A DNA stretch of 64,000 nucleotides from Roseovarius pacificus (GTDB lineage Bacteria; Pseudomonadota; Alphaproteobacteria; Rhodobacterales; Rhodobacteraceae). The notes below the pieces were generated by a model. That model did no database searches, was not told the DNA's origin, and saw only the letters and a list, made by a program, of their open reading frames with translations. The DNA lies in NCBI RefSeq assembly GCF_900142665.1, contig NZ_FRBR01000006.1:1-64000 (forward strand), in the 5' to 3' direction. The number at the start of each line of letters is the position of its first letter. The first letter of the stretch is position 1. Below, one piece after another: positions 28,287 through 64,000 of this stretch. Both the position numbers and the translations under genes were made by a program.

Positions 28287-28988
28287 TCAGTCGGGCACCA
28301 GCATATACCCCTCGCCGCGCACCGTTTGCAGGTAGCGGGGCTGCTTGGGATCGGCTTCGATCTTGCGGCGCAGCCGGGTGATCTGCACATCGACCGCGCG
28401 TTCCTGCGCCTGTCCCCTGTCGCGGCCCAGATCCTCGACCAGCTTGGTGCGGCTCACCGGCTCGCGCAGGTTTTCCGAGAATATCCGCATCAGCTGCACC
28501 TCGGTCGCGGTCAGGCGCACCATGGCGTCGCCCTCAAACAATTCCGAGCGTTCGATATCGAACCGCACCTGCCCCATATGCAGCACCTTGGGCGCCGCCA
28601 GCGCCGCGGCGGGTTCGGGCATCCGCCGCAGGATCGCGTTGATCCGCAGCAGCAGTTCCTTGGGTTCGAACGGTTTGGGCAGGTAATCGTCGGCCCCCGC
28701 CTCAAGCCCCGCAATGCGCTCTTCGGTTTCGCCTCTGGCGGTCAGCAAGAGGATCGGCGTTTGCATCGTTTCGCGCAAGGATCGGGTCAGCGAAACGCCG
28801 TCTTCACCCGGCATCATCACATCCATCACGATCAGGTCGAATTCCAGCCCCGACAGGACACGCCGGGCATGTGCCGCATCCCGCGCGACCGACACCAGAA
28901 ATCCGTTCCGAACCAGGAACTTGCGCAACAGGCCGCGAATGCGCTCGTCATCGTCCACGATCAGCAGATGGGGAATGGGATCGCTCAT
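28287..28988 (-). CDS. petR: OmpR-type response regulator, PetR-like
   Basis: 233 residues. Receiver domain with acidic pocket (LLIVDDDERIR), phosphoacceptor Asp in DLIVMDVMMPGEDG, Thr in LLLTARG and Lys in PKPFEPKELL; DNA-binding winged helix from residue 135 (LTATEVQLMRIF, RAVDVQITRLRRKIE, TVRGEGYMLVPD). Its ATG overlaps the stop of the MarR gene by 4 bases. In Rhodobacter capsulatus a MarR-type PetP and response regulator PetR form such a pair. No sensor kinase gene adjoins here. Confidence 0.85.
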   Translation of the reverse strand: MSDPIPHLLIVDDDERIRGLLRKFLVRNGFLVSVARDAAHARRVLSGLEFDLIVMDVMMPGEDGVSLTRSLRETMQTPILLLTARGETEERIAGLEAGADDYLPKPFEPKELLLRINAILRRMPEPAAALAAPKVLHMGQVRFDIERSELFEGDAMVRLTATEVQLMRIFSENLREPVSRTKLVEDLGRDRGQAQERAVDVQITRLRRKIEADPKQPRYLQTVRGEGYMLVPD

Positions 28989-46149: not shown

Positions 46150-46226
46150 GTTTTGTCCTTTCGTTTGTTCGCTGGCCCGGAATTTCTGAAAATTCCGGGC
46201 CGAAATCTATTCAGGATCTCGCCCGC

Positions 46227-57465: not shown

Positions 57466-58161
57466 TCAGTTCGATACCGCCGGGGCGTCGAAAGATTGCC
57501 GTACCTGCTCCATTCCCTGGATCACATCCTCGCGGATCGCCCGCGCCGCGCCTTCCGCATCCTTCGCGCGCATCGCCTCCAACAGGTCCTTGTGCTTGTC
57601 CGGCAGGTTCTGAGTCCCGAGCCGCCCACAGACCACCCGCAGCGACGGGCCGAACCGCAACCACAACCCATCGGCCAGATCGGCCAGGATCGGGGCCTCG
57701 GCCAACTCGTACAGGCGCTTGTGAAACCGGTAGTTCAGCTCCAGATATCCGCGCAAATCGCCCGCCGAAATCGACCGGTCCAGCGCCTCGTCCAGGGCCG
57801 TCAGCTCCTCCAGGTCGTCGGGGGTCGCGCGCTCGGTGGCGCGCAGGCTCAGATGTGGGTCAAGCCATTGTCGTGCAAGGATTAATTCGCTGATATTATC
57901 GGCGTTCAGAAGCGGCACAGAGACCCGGCGATTGCCCTGAAACTCCAGCGCCCCCTCGGCAATCAGGCGGCGGATCGCCTCGCGCACCGGGGTCATGCCC
58001 GCGCCCAGCCGTTCAGTCAGGCCCTGAATGGTCACCGCCTGCCCCGGCGCCAGATCGCCGTACAGCACCAGATCGCGCAACTGCCGATAGATCACCTCAT
58101 GCGCCGGCAGACGCCCTCTGGCAGTGGCGGATTCGGTTAATTTTCCGGCAGCCTTGTTCAT
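57466..58161 (-). CDS. GntR-family regulator, FadR/FCD subfamily
   Basis: 231 residues from ATG 58161, chosen for GGAGG 8 bases upstream; longer starts at 58191 and 58335 have no such site. Winged helix LRDLVLYGDLAPGQAVTIQGLTERLGAGMTPVREAIRRLIAEGALE, then a helical FCD domain with metal-site-like His residues (LNYRFHKRLYE). Lies between divergent polyamine-type genes and probably controls both. Confidence 0.86.
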   Translation of the reverse strand: MNKAAGKLTESATARGRLPAHEVIYRQLRDLVLYGDLAPGQAVTIQGLTERLGAGMTPVREAIRRLIAEGALEFQGNRRVSVPLLNADNISELILARQWLDPHLSLRATERATPDDLEELTALDEALDRSISAGDLRGYLELNYRFHKRLYELAEAPILADLADGLWLRFGPSLRVVCGRLGTQNLPDKHKDLLEAMRAKDAEGAARAIREDVIQGMEQVRQSFDAPAVSN

Positions 58162-58255
58162 GTCCGGGGCCTCCAGTCGCCCTGTCCTCATAACTGATCT
58201 TGCGAGTTTAACGGCTGCGTGAAAACATTGCCATATTGCCATGAGCGGAATTTTT

Positions 58256-58264
58256 TGATCAAAT
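58256..58264. promoter_or_regulatory. Candidate GntR site TGATCAAAT (site 2)
   Basis: Located 46 bp before potF ATG 58310, in an AT-rich stretch; TTTTTTGATCAAATC contains the palindrome TTTGATCAAA-like core. Matches site 1 at 57439. Confidence 0.4.
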
Positions 58265-58309
58265 CCGCAGACAAGGCAAAACAACTTGCCGAACCAACGG
58301 GAGACCACA

Positions 58310-59395
58310 ATGCGCAAGCTGATTCTGACAACCACCGCAACGATTGCCCTCGGCGCTGTATCCGCCAGCGCAGAAGAGGTGCGGGTCTACAACTGGTCCG
58401 ACTACATCGACGAGGAACTGCTGACCAGGTTCGAGGAAGAAACCGGACTGGACCTGATCTATGACGTGTTCGACAGCAACGAGGTTCTGGAAACCAAGAT
58501 GCTGGCCGGTGGCTCGGGCTATGATGTCGTGGTCCCCACCGGAACCTTCCTGCAACGCCAGATCAGTGCCGGTGCATTCCAGAAACTGGACCCGGCCAAG
58601 CTGCCCAATCTCGACAACATGTGGGACGTGGTCGAACAGCGCACCGCGCAATACGATCCCGACAACGCCTATTCGATCAACTACATGTGGGGCACCACCG
58701 GAATCGGCGTGAATGTCGGCAAGGTCACCGAATTGCTGGGCGAAGATGCCCCGGTCGACAGCCTGGACCTGATCTTCAACCCGGAAAACATGGAAAAGCT
58801 GGCCGGGTGCGGCGTGCATTTCCTGGACGCCCCGGCCGAGATGATCCCCGCAGCGCTCAAATATATCGGTGAAGACCCCGACAGCCACGATCCCGACGTG
58901 ATCGCCAGGGTCGAAGAGGTCTATGCCCCGATCCGCCCCTATATCCAGAAGTTCCACAGCAGCGAATACATCAACGCGCTGGCCAATGGCGATATCTGTG
59001 TGGCCGTGGGCTGGTCGGGCGACATCCTTCAGGCGCGGGACCGCGCGGACGAGGCCGGTAACGGTGTCGAAATCGCCTATAACGCCCCAAAGGAAGGCGC
59101 GCAGATGTGGTTTGACCAGATGGCCATTCCCACCGATGCGCCCAACCCCGATGGCGCGCACAAGTTCCTGAACTTCATCATGGACGCGCAAAACATGGCC
59201 GCCGCGTCGAACTATGTGTATTACGCCAACGGCAACAAGGCTTCGCAGGAATACCTGATCGAGGATGTGATCGACGATCCAGCGATCTATCCGTCGCAAG
59301 AGGCGATGGACAACCTGTTCACGACCACGCCCTACCCGGCAAAGGTTCAGCGCGTCGTGACGCGTCTGTGGACCAAGATCAAATCGGGCACCTGA
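58310..59395 (+). CDS. potF: Putrescine-type ABC periplasmic binding protein
   Basis: 361 residues with signal peptide (residues 1-22, ending SASA). Matches PotF/SpuD in EVRVYNWSDYIDEELL, YDVVVPTGTFLQRQI, MWGTTGIGVNVGKV and ICVAVGWSGDILQAR, which hold the polyamine-contacting acidic and aromatic residues. ATG 58310 follows GGGAG. First gene of potFGHI; an attenuator hairpin follows. Confidence 0.88.
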   Translation: MRKLILTTTATIALGAVSASAEEVRVYNWSDYIDEELLTRFEEETGLDLIYDVFDSNEVLETKMLAGGSGYDVVVPTGTFLQRQISAGAFQKLDPAKLPNLDNMWDVVEQRTAQYDPDNAYSINYMWGTTGIGVNVGKVTELLGEDAPVDSLDLIFNPENMEKLAGCGVHFLDAPAEMIPAALKYIGEDPDSHDPDVIARVEEVYAPIRPYIQKFHSSEYINALANGDICVAVGWSGDILQARDRADEAGNGVEIAYNAPKEGAQMWFDQMAIPTDAPNPDGAHKFLNFIMDAQNMAAASNYVYYANGNKASQEYLIEDVIDDPAIYPSQEAMDNLFTTTPYPAKVQRVVTRLWTKIKSGT

Positions 59396-59406
59396 CGCCC
59401 TTTTAC

Positions 59407-59440
59407 GGCCCGCGCAACGCATTTGCGCGGGCCATTTTCT
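59407..59440 (+). terminator. Attenuator hairpin between potF and potG
   Basis: GGCCCGCGCAA (59407-59417) pairs perfectly with TTGCGCGGGCC (59423-59433), then ATTTTCTG. It would stop or slow part of the transcripts, giving more binding protein than the membrane parts. Confidence 0.7.
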
Positions 59441-59456
59441 GACAGGTGGGACAGGT

Positions 59457-60581
59457 ATGACTCAAACCGTATTCGAGCCGTGGAACGACCCGAACGAAAA
59501 ACCGCTGATCCAGTTCAGGGGTGTCACCAAACGGTTCGGCGATTTCACCGCCATCGACAATCAGACATTCGACATTTTCGAACGTGAGTTCTTTGCCCTG
59601 CTCGGCCCTTCGGGCTGTGGCAAGACCACGATGATGCGCATGCTGGCAGGGTTCGAAACGCCCACCGAAGGCACAATCCTGCTGGCCGGGCAGGATATCG
59701 CGCCGATCCCTCCCAACAAACGCGCCGTGAACATGATGTTCCAGTCTTATGCGCTGTTCCCGCACCTGTCGGTCTGGGACAACATCGCCTTCGGCCTGAA
59801 ACGCGACGGCATGGCCCGCGACGCCATCGGCGATCGTGTCGCCGAGATGCTGAAACTCACCCGGCTGGAGAAATTCGCCAGGCGCAAACCCCACCAGATT
59901 TCCGGCGGTCAGCGGCAGCGCGTGGCGCTGGCCCGCAGCCTTGCCAAGGCGCCCAAGCTGCTGTTGCTCGACGAACCCCTGGGCGCGCTCGATGCCAAGC
60001 TGCGCCAGGATACCCAGTTCGAACTGATGGACATTCAGGAAAAGACCGGCACCACCTTCGTGATCGTCACCCACGATCAGGAAGAGGCGATGACCGTCGC
60101 CAGCCGCGTCGCGGTGATGGATCACGGGCAGATCATTCAGGCCGACACCCCCGCGCGCATCTACGAGACCCCCAATTCCGTCTACGTGGCCGATTTCATC
60201 GGCGATGTAACCATCATCGAAGGCACCGCCACCCGGGACGGCGCGGGATACCGGATCGACTTTGCCGAAGGACAGCCCGCCCTCTATGCCGAAACCGATA
60301 TCGCGCTGACCGACGGACAGCGCGCCTATCTGGCGATCCGGCCTGAAAAAGTCTCTATCACGGCGGAAAAGCCCGAAGACAAACGCAACGCGCTGCGCGG
60401 CAAGATCCTCGATATCGCCTATCTGGGCAATCTGTCGACCTATCACGTCGAATTGCCGAAGGGTCAGATCGTGCGCGCCCAGACGGCCAACACACGCCGC
60501 CTGTCGCGCCGCTCTTTCACATGGGAGGACGAGGTCTGGCTCAGCTGGACCGACACCGCCGCCGTCCTGCTGGAGCGCTGA
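59457..60581 (+). CDS. potG: Polyamine ABC transporter ATPase
   Basis: 374 residues. Walker A GPSGCGKTTMMRMLAG, MMFQSYALFPHL, ISGGQRQRVALARSLA, LLLLDEPLGALDAK, VTHDQEEAM, C-terminal TOBE domain. Follows potF after the hairpin; the second permease pair comes 4 bases after its stop. Confidence 0.9.
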   Translation: MTQTVFEPWNDPNEKPLIQFRGVTKRFGDFTAIDNQTFDIFEREFFALLGPSGCGKTTMMRMLAGFETPTEGTILLAGQDIAPIPPNKRAVNMMFQSYALFPHLSVWDNIAFGLKRDGMARDAIGDRVAEMLKLTRLEKFARRKPHQISGGQRQRVALARSLAKAPKLLLLDEPLGALDAKLRQDTQFELMDIQEKTGTTFVIVTHDQEEAMTVASRVAVMDHGQIIQADTPARIYETPNSVYVADFIGDVTIIEGTATRDGAGYRIDFAEGQPALYAETDIALTDGQRAYLAIRPEKVSITAEKPEDKRNALRGKILDIAYLGNLSTYHVELPKGQIVRAQTANTRRLSRRSFTWEDEVWLSWTDTAAVLLER

Positions 60582-60584
60582 ACG

Positions 60585-61475
60585 ATGCGGCGCGCAACTC
60601 TCATCCTCGTTCCCTACCTGTGGCTTCTGGCGCTGTTCCTGGTGCCTTTCGTGATCGTCCTGAAAATCAGCCTCAGCGACACGGCCCTGGCCATCCCGCC
60701 CTACACCCCCACGCTGGATTTCGGTGCAGGCTGGCAGGGCATCAGGGATTTCTTCTCACAGCTCGATCTTGAGAACTTCTGGTTCCTGAGCACCGACGAC
60801 CTCTACTGGAAGGCCTACCTGTCCTCGGTCAAGATCGCGGCCATCGCCACCTTCCTGACCCTGCTGGCGGGCTATCCCATCGCCTACGGCATGGCCAACG
60901 CCCCCGATCACTGGCGGCCCACGCTGATGCTGCTGGTGATCCTGCCCTTCTGGACCAGCTTCCTGATCCGCGTCTATTCGTGGATGGGGATTCTTTCGGG
61001 CGAAGGCTATCTGAACCAGTTCCTGATGTGGACAGGTCTGATTTCCCAACCGCTGACCATCCTCAACACACCCATCGCGGTCTATATCGGCATCGTCTAC
61101 ACCTACCTGCCCTTCATGATCCTGCCCATCTATGCCGCGCTCGAACGCATGGATGCCTCCCTGCTGGAGGCTGCCGAGGATCTGGGCTGTTCGCGGTTCA
61201 AGGCCTTCTGGCTGATCACCATTCCGCTGTCCAGGAACGGCATCATCGCGGGCTGTTTCCTTGTATTCATCCCGACCATCGGTGAATTCGTGATTCCCTC
61301 GCTTCTGGGCGGATCGCGCACCCTGATGATCGGCAAGGTGCTGTGGGAGGAATTCTTCAACAACCGCGACTGGCCGGTGGCCAGCGCCGTGGCGGTGATC
61401 CTGCTGCTGATCCTGATCGTCCCGATCATCCTGTTCCAGCGCAACGAGCAGAAACAGCGGGAGGCCGAAGGATGA
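60585..61475 (+). CDS. potH: Polyamine ABC transporter permease
   Basis: 296 residues, about six helices, ordinary size for PotH/PotB, with EAA loop LLEAAEDLGCSRFKAFWLITIPL. Its first periplasmic loop (about residues 30-80) is the normal length and serves as a contrast to the 555-residue permease at 40471. Its stop overlaps a 28-codon ORF. Confidence 0.88.
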   Translation: MRRATLILVPYLWLLALFLVPFVIVLKISLSDTALAIPPYTPTLDFGAGWQGIRDFFSQLDLENFWFLSTDDLYWKAYLSSVKIAAIATFLTLLAGYPIAYGMANAPDHWRPTLMLLVILPFWTSFLIRVYSWMGILSGEGYLNQFLMWTGLISQPLTILNTPIAVYIGIVYTYLPFMILPIYAALERMDASLLEAAEDLGCSRFKAFWLITIPLSRNGIIAGCFLVFIPTIGEFVIPSLLGGSRTLMIGKVLWEEFFNNRDWPVASAVAVILLLILIVPIILFQRNEQKQREAEG

Positions 61476-61558
61476 GAACCGTCGAGCACCTGAAATCTTC
61501 AAAAGATTTCAGCCCGATGTCTTTTCAGGACATCGTCACCCGGAGGGCGTGCGCATGA
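61472..61558 (+). CDS. 28-residue ORF bridging potH and potI by ATGA overlaps
   Basis: ATG 61472 overlaps the potH stop and its TGA overlaps the potI ATG 61555, both as ATGA. Product starts MRTVEHLKSSKD and ends TRRACA; basic, no known family. The DNA also forms two perfect hairpins. It may be a true coupled micropeptide, a coupling leader, or a chance reading of the hairpin DNA. Confidence 0.35.
   Translation: MRTVEHLKSSKDFSPMSFQDIVTRRACA
61490..61535 (+). repeat. Two tandem hairpins between potH and potI
   Basis: CTGAAATCTT/AAGATTTCAG (61490-61499 with 61503-61512, 3-base loop) and CGATGTC/GACATCG (61515-61521 with 61529-61535, 7-base loop). Both stems are perfect and AT-richer than the flanks. 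Possible RNA-processing or stability element. Confidence 0.65.
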
Positions 61559-62370
61559 GACGCTTCACCTGGTTCAACGCCACATCGCTGACCCTCGGCT
61601 TTGCGTTCCTCTACCTGCCGATGGTCCTGCTGATCATCTACAGCTTCAATGAGTCCAAGCTGGTCACGGTCTGGGCGGGATTTTCCACCAAATGGTACGG
61701 CGAACTCCTGCGGAACGAGGCATTTCTGGACGCCGCATGGGTCACGCTTCAGGTGGCCTTTGTCAGTTCCACCATCGCCACGGTCCTTGGCACCATGGCG
61801 GCCTATGTCATGGTCCGCGCGGGCCGTTTCGCGGGGCGTACCCTGTTTTCCGGCATGATCTACGCACCGCTTGTCATGCCCGAGGTGATCACCGGCCTGT
61901 CACTGCTGCTGTTGTTCATCGGCATCGGGCTGGACCGCGGGGTATTCACCATCATCCTCGCCCATACGACCTTTTCGATGTGCTACGTCTCGGTCGTGGT
62001 GTCCTCTCGGCTGGTCAGCTTTGACCGTTCACTGGAAGAGGCCGCGCTCGATCTGGGCTGTTCGCCGATGCAGGCGTTTCGCCTTGTCACCCTGCCCATC
62101 ATCGCGCCTGCGGTGATTTCCGGCTGGCTGCTGGCCTTTACCCTGTCGCTGGACGATCTGGTGATCGCATCCTTTACCGCCGGTCCGTCGGCCACCACCC
62201 TGCCGATCAAGATCTGGTCGTCGATCCGCCTGGGCGTCAGCCCCGAGATCAACGCATTGTCCACGCTGATGATCGCCGTGGTCGCCGTTGGGGTCATCAC
62301 CGCCTCGATCGTGACGAAACGTGCGGCCCTGCGGCAACAGGCAGATCAACGCGCCGCCGAACGCGCATGA
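61555..62370 (+). CDS. potI: Polyamine ABC transporter permease
   Basis: 271 residues, PotI/PotC size. EAA loop SLEEAALDLGCSPMQAFRLVTLPI. ATG 61555 has GGAGGG 7 bases upstream; GTG 61549 is too close to it. Ends in an ATGA overlap with the oxidase gene. Confidence 0.88.
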   Translation: MRRFTWFNATSLTLGFAFLYLPMVLLIIYSFNESKLVTVWAGFSTKWYGELLRNEAFLDAAWVTLQVAFVSSTIATVLGTMAAYVMVRAGRFAGRTLFSGMIYAPLVMPEVITGLSLLLLFIGIGLDRGVFTIILAHTTFSMCYVSVVVSSRLVSFDRSLEEAALDLGCSPMQAFRLVTLPIIAPAVISGWLLAFTLSLDDLVIASFTAGPSATTLPIKIWSSIRLGVSPEINALSTLMIAVVAVGVITASIVTKRAALRQQADQRAAERA

Positions 62371-63692
62371 AACACGTCTTTCCCGAGCACACCTATGGCG
62401 ATGCGCCCCGTGCGCAGTGCTATTGGGGCGATACGGTGTCCGATCCCGGCTATCCTGCCGCCTCGGGGCAGATCACCTGCGATATCGCGGTGATCGGCGC
62501 GGGCTTTACCGGCCTTTCCGCCGCCTTGCATCTGGCCGAATCCGGGGCCGATGTAGCCGTATTAGAGACGAATACACCCGGCTGGGGCGCCTCGGGGCGC
62601 AATGGCGGATTCTGCTGTCTTGGCGGGTTCGGGGCCCCCGACCCGGTGATCGCCAAGCTGCACGGCGAAAACGCCCGCGCCGAGGCCCGCCGCGCCGAAA
62701 TGGCCGCCGTCGAAACCGCCGCCGATCTGATCGAGCGCCACGATTTGCAGGTCAACCGCCACTCGGACGGCGAAACCGTCATGGGCTTCACCCCCAGATC
62801 GCTGGCCGGGTTCGAAGCCGAGTCGAAACGGATCGAGGTCGATCTCGGCATCACGCCACAAATCATCCCGAACGAAGATCTGGCACAGCACGGCATGACC
62901 GGCCCGTTCCACTGCGGCATGAGTATTCCGGTGGGGTTCGCCCTGAACCCGGCCAAATACGCGCTTGGCCTCGCACAGGCGGCCAGCACGCAGGGCGCGC
63001 GTATCTTTTCGCGCTCACCCGTGCAGCGGATCGACCACGGCAATCGCTTTACCCTGCATACGGATAGCGCCCGGATCACCGCCAAACGCCTGATCGTAGC
63101 AACCAACGGCTATTCCTCGGACGACCTGCCGCGCTGGATGCGGGCGCGATACCTGCCTGCGCAATCCAATGTGCTGGTCACCCGCACCCTGTCGGACGAA
63201 GAGATCGCCGAACAGGGCTGGTCCAGCCACCAGATGGCCTATGACGAACGGTTCTTCCTGCATTATTTCCGCCTGATGCCCAACCGGCGCTTCCTGTTCG
63301 GGATGCGTGGCGGGTTGTTCAGCTCCCCGGCACAGGATGCCCGCATGCACCGCACGATCCGCAGCCATTTCGAGCGGATGTTCCCCGCCTGGGCGCATGT
63401 CGATACCCCCTATAGCTGGAACGGGTTGCTCAGCCTGTCGCGCGACATGACCCCCTATGCCGGCCCGATCCCCGAAATGCCGGGGGCCTTCACCGCGCTC
63501 AGCTATCAGGGCAACGGCGTGGCGATGGCCAGCCACGCGGGGGCGATCCTTGCCGATCTGGTACAGGACAAGACACCAAGCCGCGCCTATCCGTCCATCC
63601 TGCGCAAACCGCCCCGGCGCTTTCCCCTGGGCCGTTTCCGGCGCGCATGGCTTTGGCCGCCCTACGCGGTGGCTGCATTGACCGGCGGGTAA
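62367..63692 (+). CDS. FAD-dependent amine oxidase, PuuB (gamma-glutamylputrescine oxidase)-like
   Basis: 441 residues. DAO-type flavoenzyme: YWGDTVSDPG start, dinucleotide fold CDIAVIGAGFTGLSAALHLAESGADVAVLE (about residues 40-68), GWGASGRNGGFC flavin-attachment region, and ending GNGVAMASHAG. Coupled to potI, so it would oxidise an imported amine. The partner ligase PuuA is not in the window, so direct amine oxidation is also open. Confidence 0.82.
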   Translation: MKHVFPEHTYGDAPRAQCYWGDTVSDPGYPAASGQITCDIAVIGAGFTGLSAALHLAESGADVAVLETNTPGWGASGRNGGFCCLGGFGAPDPVIAKLHGENARAEARRAEMAAVETAADLIERHDLQVNRHSDGETVMGFTPRSLAGFEAESKRIEVDLGITPQIIPNEDLAQHGMTGPFHCGMSIPVGFALNPAKYALGLAQAASTQGARIFSRSPVQRIDHGNRFTLHTDSARITAKRLIVATNGYSSDDLPRWMRARYLPAQSNVLVTRTLSDEEIAEQGWSSHQMAYDERFFLHYFRLMPNRRFLFGMRGGLFSSPAQDARMHRTIRSHFERMFPAWAHVDTPYSWNGLLSLSRDMTPYAGPIPEMPGAFTALSYQGNGVAMASHAGAILADLVQDKTPSRAYPSILRKPPRRFPLGRFRRAWLWPPYAVAALTGG

Positions 63693-63697
63693 CAGGC

Positions 63698-64000
63698 TTA
63701 GCCCTGCGGGGTACGCAATGCACGGGCCTGCCCACGCTTCAGGCCCAGATGACGCTCGCGCAGGATGATGATGATCCCCGCCGCAATCACCAACACCGCA
63801 CCCAGCAACATCGGCCCGGTCGGCACCTCGTCGAAAATCACGTACCCGATCGCCAGCGCGAACAGCATCGACGCATAATCGAACGGCGCCACCACACTGG
63901 CATCGGCAAAGCGATAGGCCGAAGTCAGGAAAATCTGCGCGATGCCGCCGATCAGCCCCGCGAGGATCAGATAAACAGTCTCTGTTCCGCCCGGAATCGT
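63698..64000 (-). CDS. EamA/DMT-family transporter, C-terminal part (runs off the window)
   Basis: The - strand frame is open from the window edge to the stop at 63698. The visible 100 residues are four helices of an EamA repeat (GGIAQIFLTSAYRFADASVVAPF, PTGPMLLGAVLVIAAGIIII) and a basic tail. The N-terminal two thirds lie outside. Drug/metabolite exporter family; convergent with the oxidase gene. Confidence 0.8.
   Translation of the reverse strand, partial: TIPGGTETVYLILAGLIGGIAQIFLTSAYRFADASVVAPFDYASMLFALAIGYVIFDEVPTGPMLLGAVLVIAAGIIIILRERHLGLKRGQARALRTPQG

Follow-up and report, generated by a model that had tools for sequence, protein, structure and literature searches.

Organization of the potH-potI junction

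The window, a 64,000-nt stretch of DNA from Roseovarius pacificus that was analyzed as a whole, carries toward its end a set of genes assigned by sequence to a polyamine-type ABC operon, with a micro-ORF between the two permease genes (Table 1). PotH and PotI were the top NCBIfam models for the potH-like and potI-like genes, both with scores under the curated (equivalog) cut-offs (392.6 bits versus 489, and 333.7 bits versus 476, respectively), and the substrate-binding protein gene of the operon had PotF as its top model, likewise under its cut-off. In ABC importers, two permeases of this kind are expected to make the membrane heterodimer of the transporter. Two other junctions of the operon were also inspected. 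Between the substrate-binding and ATPase genes, an 11-bp GC-rich stem followed by a T-rich tail resembles a terminator (59407-59433), and an excess of the binding protein may be set there. The potI/oxidoreductase junction was found as a 4-nt overlap in 58 of 88 cases measured among relatives; wide opening was rare, with widened junctions of 25, 48, and 31 nt in L169, L184, and L207, respectively.

Table 1. Features of the potH-potI region, in coordinates of the window
Feature	Position	Strand	Basis and remarks
potA/potG-like gene, ATP-binding subunit of the same operon	59457..60581	+	TIGR01187 (potA subfamily) above cut-off
potH-like permease gene	60585..61475	+	ORF; PF00528; terminal ATGA shared with the micro-ORF start
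Shine-Dalgarno-like GGAGG	61460..61464	+	Sequence; 7 nt 5′ of the micro-ORF ATG
Micro-ORF, 28 codons plus stop, proposed relay from potH to potI	61472..61558	+	ATGA at each end
Twin-hairpin repeat core, family A, 47 nt	61490..61536	+	Covariance model, 66.6 bits, E-value 4.9e-17 (window copy is itself among the 46 cores behind the model); covariation
Hairpin 1	61490..61512	+	Perfect 10 bp; arms 61490-61499/61503-61512; 3-nt loop
Hairpin 2	61515..61535	+	7 perfect bp; arms 61515-61521/61529-61535; when folded, 9 bp with one G-U and a UUC loop
Shine-Dalgarno-like GGAGG	61542..61546	+	Sequence; 8 nt 5′ of the potI ATG
potI-like permease gene	61555..62370	+	ORF; start chosen by alignment and Shine-Dalgarno sequence; PF00528
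FAD-dependent oxidoreductase gene, DAO domain	62367..63692	+	PF01266; ATGA overlap with potI

The 28-codon frame that an earlier note on this DNA had placed between the permease genes was found to be real: its start shares ATGA with the potH stop (61472-61475), and its stop shares ATGA with the potI start (61555-61558). Both perfect stems described in that note, of 10 and 7 bp, were present, and the AT-rich character it attributed to the spacer was borne out, the 47-nt hairpin block having a GC content of 40% compared with 62% for the whole window and 60% for the 300 nt on either side; 0.9% of all 47-mers in the window are equally AT-rich. Folding energy gave z = -6.2 versus shuffles for the 51-nt block and only z = -1.65 when the flanks were included (97 nt). 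Perfect 10-bp stems are not rare in the window, where they begin at 20 positions that fall at ten places; what stands above chance is the tandem pair of stems, its recurrence, and its covariation, and not one perfect 10-bp stem. Scans for known families gave no Pfam or NCBIfam match for the micro-ORF. A known RNA family was rejected on finding no match to the Rfam covariance models in 60500-62500 at E-values up to 1, and an intrinsic terminator was rejected as the hairpins were absent among the four terminator-like sites predicted in 58000-63800.

The hairpins are a copy of a dispersed repeat

When the pot region was compared with 84 Roseovarius genomes, additional short matches were found to fall on the hairpin stretch, which as a query of its own matched in 31 of the 84 genomes, with a maximum of 13 matches per genome. 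A covariance model extended these findings and identified the stems as one copy of a dispersed Roseovarius repeat, here termed family A, that matched in 59 of the 84 genomes with up to 68 rows per genome, both strands counted. In the window's own genome, BLAST recovered one full-length copy only, and the covariance model found more, namely 12 places, represented by 20 rows over the two strands, of which the last two are weak. A second, weaker twin-hairpin copy lies within the window itself (46177-46222, 30.5 bits), at one of the ten places that have a perfect 10-bp stem.

The 46 distinct 47-nt cores were aligned without gaps and share a structure in which two stems of 10 bp, each closed by a 3-nt loop, are 1 nt apart; 95.3% of cells pair. 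Of the 20 base pairs, 12 change on both sides, giving 47 such cells, where shuffling gives 11 on average and slid controls no more than 8; these counts are inflated by relatedness since the copies were gathered through their mutual similarity. Many copies are located directly after stop codons, often between convergent and seldom between divergent genes (17 and 3, respectively, of the 55 listed copies, six of which are the pot copies), according to crude gene calls based on long frames with GC bias. A second dispersed twin-hairpin family, family B, had 8 to 11 matches in each of five genomes; its query included the potH end, such that a few of these matches represent the potH end or the same place on the opposite strand.

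The junction is empty in most relatives

The potH-potI junction was read at 152 loci, comprising 73 loci from the 84 Roseovarius genomes searched and 79 named records, with some genomes present in both sets. Genomes without a usable junction match fall outside the counts, as do L141, which has no potH, and L284; identical spacers were counted once. At most of the 152 loci, potH and potI overlap directly with no spacer. Within Roseovarius, 44 of the 73 loci were empty, all 44 through ATGA, and 29 were filled (28 distinct spacers); the 79 named loci included 71 that were empty and 8 that were filled. Sampling was also extended to 80 genera with one genome each. Here 65 junctions were spacerless (57 with ATGA, 4 with GTGA, 2 with CTGA, and 2 with a 1-nt overlap), one had a 2-nt gap, and 14 were filled. 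The 14 include L284, where a paralogous pair of permease genes is separated by a frame of 159 codons that has ATGA at each end.

Of 180 empty junctions, 177 have a Shine-Dalgarno match of at least 4 nt ahead of the shared overlap, and of 43 filled junctions, 41 have one ahead of the ATG of the spacer frame. A match of this length also precedes potI in 40 of the 43 filled spacers, compared with 23% of shuffled spacers; with a Shine-Dalgarno sequence of its own, potI might start uncoupled, a point against the relay model below.

Placing the filled and empty junctions on a tree of both genes requires 28 changes of state, of which well-supported branches force 12, such that the number of independent insertions is uncertain. 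The nearest relative of the window locus (L025) has an empty junction, with the two proteins 93% and 96% identical. We take the filled state to be derived since the empty state is commoner, the change count itself giving no direction. One sequence group (group A) may have a long history in which the insert was lost exactly, more than once, by deletion from one ATGA end to the other, or it may have arrived several times; under either history, the rule described below survives complete turnover of the spacer sequence.

Unrelated spacers keep one frame open from potH to potI

The spacers found in the relatives, together with that of the window, amount to 57 distinct sequences of 22 to 244 nt. By blastn (E-value 1e-3, at least 18 nt), they were sorted into 19 groups without detectable similarity to one another, although very short words may be held in common at these settings. 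In all 57, the frame that is opened at the potH stop stays open to the potI start, while the other two frames are open in just 44 and 36. Spacer length is 1 mod 3 in 56 of the 57 and in 33 of the 34 combinations of group and length. The frame closes through ATGA at the potI start in 56 spacers, the exception (L014) stopping 1 nt before the potI ATG, and opens through ATGA in 56, the exception (L361) having CTGA as the potH stop with an in-frame ATG as TGATG (CTGATG). For the 43 distinct spacers of the first two sets, all 17 groups conform where 3.7 groups are expected by chance (product of chances, 10^-11.7), with the L014 group scored as a success since its other members close at ATGA. At the level of groups, length alone gives P = 3e-8.

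The rule was then used to make an advance prediction for a fresh genus. Of its 20 genomes, 14 seemed to have a filled junction, and these 14 and five of the six empty ones were retrieved. All 14 filled junctions had a spacer length of 1 mod 3 and closure at ATGA (spacers of 58 to 157 nt), a result that represents fewer independent successes than 14 as 11 of the spacers belong to one sequence group. The suggestion of the earlier note that the frame keeps ribosomes coupled gains strong support from the comparison, in which 57 of 57 spacers are joined and 14 of 14 were predicted.

What fills the junction was found to differ widely. In most pot spacers of the fresh genus (L357, L359, L360, L363-L366, and L368-L370), a pyrimidine-rich stretch is followed by CCAAATACGC-like letters, with no twin hairpin evident; a search of 1.48 Mb of DNA of other genera for an 11-nt word of this stretch gave a single occurrence, in the pot spacer of L231. 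In L024, L027, L074, L076, L097, L358, and L367, the junction is filled by another GC-rich palindromic repeat, partly in tandem, and the joining frame is present.

Other junctions mostly lack the relay frame, and none of the testable repeat copies elsewhere has it

Four controls were considered: (i) the copies of the family A repeat away from the potH-potI junction; (ii) ATGA-ended gene pairs at large; (iii) a chain of rfb genes; and (iv) a pair of regulator genes. Among 68 distinct repeat copies, the 6 at the potH-potI junction all provide a relay, meaning a frame that runs from the upstream stop to the downstream start. Of the 62 elsewhere, no relay was detected in the 45 with flanks long enough to test, nor, by a looser test, in the 17 further copies from short loci (351 or 361 nt). 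The possibility that the repeat carries its own relay was rejected on the basis of the 45 testable copies.

Gene pairs were scanned in 80 regions, each no longer than 20 kb, using similarly crude gene calls as for the repeat context, and for the ATGA-ended pairs the 14 pot cases were removed by hand from an initial 20 of 53. A relay-type frame was found in 6 of the remaining 39 ATGA pairs and in 52 of 306 pairs whose upstream gene has no start codon at its stop; the scan recovered 7 of the 13 pot relays within its regions. One of the six ATGA pairs outside pot is in L275, where on the minus strand a 20-codon ATGA-to-ATGA frame precedes what appears to be a branched-chain amino acid ABC ATPase gene.

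Three chained ATGA overlaps in the window (53173, 54210, and 55064) end in what we take to be dTDP-rhamnose (rfb) genes. The last two overlaps of this chain open in relatives mostly without a relay frame. At the filled rfbB-rfbD-rfbA junctions, a relay with its start at the first stop was found in 2 of 25 (one stopping 1 nt short of the start), and when the start codon was disregarded the frame was open to ATGA in 8 of 25. The lengths of these 25 gaps, all greater than 5 nt, were 1 mod 3 in 11, 0 in 11, and 2 in 3. This control is imperfect in that the genes are often rearranged, the 20 genomes were chosen for longer or split-looking matches, and the tally was made by hand. The ATGA overlap on the minus strand at 28988, between two regulator genes that are presumably petP and petR, was unbroken in all 79 genus genomes with a match and is silent on the relay rule since it was never opened.

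A general rule for all ATGA-ended genes was seen neither in the gene-pair scan nor at the rfb junctions. The rule therefore appears to belong to the potH-potI junction and not to the repeat or to ATGA-ended genes at large; it does not generalize, as insertions at the rfb junctions do not relay, and its scope is this one junction.

A relay model for the filled junction

We consider it likely, with a probability of roughly 0.83, that insertions survive at the potH-potI junction only when they bring a relay frame, in itself meaningless, through which the two permease subunits stay coupled by termination and reinitiation. Four things are direct observations from the comparison: that the frame is conserved, that it is indifferent to sequence, that the hairpins belong to a repeat, and that the junction is empty in relatives. 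According to the model, potH and potI would be translationally coupled by the ATGA overlap, as in most relatives examined, and in the window's genome a copy of the dispersed twin-hairpin repeat would have come to fill this overlap. The filler would be tolerated because it leaves a frame open from the ATGA of the potH stop to a new ATGA at potI, with the relay frame making use of the former potI start and its Shine-Dalgarno sequence. A ribosome reaching the end of potH would begin again on the relay frame, unwind both hairpins as it translates across them, terminate at the second ATGA, and initiate once more on potI, with the 28-residue peptide as a by-product. This double re-start is our reading of the sequence arrangement, and selection may act on the coupling of the two subunits by way of their stoichiometry, their assembly, or protection from Rho or RNases.

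Published work on E. coli gene pairs bears on the model. In reporters, reinitiation is described as falling by 40% to 80% at a distance of +14 nt and as almost nil by about +20 to 38 nt, and heteromeric complexes are described as enriched in short overlaps (PMC10666635). Given this distance dependence, the 79-nt gap of the window should break the coupling unless it is translated.

When the earlier note proposed that the spacer be compared among related species for conservation of the peptide or of the base pairing, each part met with a divided answer: the frame is conserved and its sequence is not, and pairing is kept as a dispersed repeat, but a perfect 7-bp stem is missing from 20 of the 57 spacers and most relatives examined lack a spacer altogether. 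Neither the dispersed nature of the stems nor the spacerless state of most relatives examined appears in that note. Homologous operons conserving neither frame nor pairing, the outcome named there as contrary, are not what was found, the frame being conserved without its sequence.

Alternative explanations of the spacer

The spacer could instead be an RNA element in which the twin hairpin sets the potH:potI ratio, such as by blocking an exonuclease or by ending transcription in part, while the frame merely keeps passage. The strong covariation of the stems, the many copies elsewhere directly after stops and often between convergent genes, and the occurrence of at least two perfect 7-bp stems in 27 of the 57 spacers compared with 0.3% of shuffles are all consistent with such a role. 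The 20 spacers without a stem of this kind do not fit, nor do the spacerless state of most relatives examined and the empty junction of the near relative L025. An element of this type is compatible with the relay, and both can hold; we nevertheless regard it as unlikely, and the setting of a permease ratio, as proposed in the earlier note, is not needed for the explanation.

A mobile element resembling the mycobacterial MIRU, with a start-to-stop frame of its own and ATGA sites as its targets, would produce an identical final architecture. The insert together with the duplicated ATGA measures 83 nt, or 2 mod 3, as is the case for the 77-bp and 53-bp MIRU described in PMC4213456. The 0 of 45 relays among testable copies away from the junction, together with fillers that span many groups without detectable similarity, make this origin very improbable.

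A functional transporter micropeptide as the product of the frame (a coupled micropeptide was the other proposal of the earlier note) has in its favor a conserved frame with a Shine-Dalgarno sequence and, in group B, the least change at codon position 1 of the non-repeat part (0.06 differences per site versus 0.37 and 0.34 at positions 2 and 3; five sequences). The non-repeat parts of group A, which flank the repeat, show changes spread over all three codon positions (per site, 0.42, 0.60, and 0.48 differences for the first, second, and third, respectively; ten sequences), with no excess at the third. The peptides range from 9 to 83 codons, have no similarity between the 19 groups and no family matches, and are missing from most relatives examined, all of which leaves a useful peptide a highly doubtful proposition.

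Chance can practically be dismissed: GC-rich, repeat-made spacers are often open, and a single 79-nt spacer of similar make-up would be open in a given frame in about 69% of cases, but this does not account for the mod 3 length and ATGA closure in 56 of 57 spacers and in the 14 predicted, with the P-value quoted above for length alone, nor for the lack of the pattern at the control gene pairs, rfb junctions, and repeat copies.

Possible meaning of the relay frame

The relay model has a broader form, which we hold to be somewhat probable, namely that at an obligatorily coupled junction ribosomes have to be passed on without interruption, and that this demand makes a translated relay, without a useful peptide, out of whatever DNA is inserted there. 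If true, such junctions would represent a recurrent route for the birth and upkeep of meaningless ORFs, as well as a natural experiment against long-range scanning by ribosomes between genes. It is disputed, as set out in PMC10666635, whether a ribosome that has terminated can scan across the gap between genes or has to begin again where it stopped. Evolution would in effect have run the scanning test many times at one coupled pair, with gaps of 22 to 244 nt, each distinct one bridged by a frame, which suggests that ribosomes need an unbroken hand-over at potH-potI. A conserved small ORF, by the same token, need not encode a useful peptide, a point that bears on the annotation of small proteins. 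The filled and empty junctions offer a ready panel for experiments.

Relation to known systems

The closest precedent, compared by description, is the mycobacterial MIRU, the original description of which is reportedly that of Supply et al. in 1997 (PMID 9426136). As described in PMC12548453, MIRU are apparently mobile repeats that are inserted at start codons and have an internal ORF coupled at -4 nt. The window locus is similar in that a dispersed repeat lies at a coupled start codon and provides an internal ORF with -4 nt overlaps through which translation of the operon would continue: the repeat family is dispersed (59 of 84 genomes; 12 places in its own genome), and the internal ORF overlaps both flanking genes by ATGA (61472-61558). 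It differs in that the Roseovarius repeat is a twin hairpin whose copies are not generally found at start codons with a coupled ORF (0 of 45 testable copies), and in that potH-potI takes mutually dissimilar fillers, all with a frame, such that the junction seems to impose the frame. Among the titles and abstracts listed in searches of open-licence papers, none reports this pot junction or a relay that a junction forces upon insertions of unrelated sequence.

Three further systems share parts of this arrangement. ATGA termination-reinitiation, as described in PMC10666635 and PMC6728339, likewise concerns subunits of heteromeric complexes, ATGA overlaps, and a strong dependence on distance; a 4-nt stop/start overlap was found here at both ends of the micro-ORF and at all 44 empty Roseovarius loci, and what differs is that two consecutive ATGA hand-overs appear to span a spacer of 22 to 244 nt. 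Short upstream ORFs that deliver ribosomes (PMC12548453) are comparable as short ORFs with the sole role of bringing a ribosome, whereas the frame described here has a gene on either side and would be supplied with ribosomes by the one upstream. REP sequences (PMC12306157, PMC3733652) are also dispersed extragenic palindromes near gene ends; the Roseovarius unit is set apart from them by description, being composed of two AT-rich hairpins with 3-nt loops.
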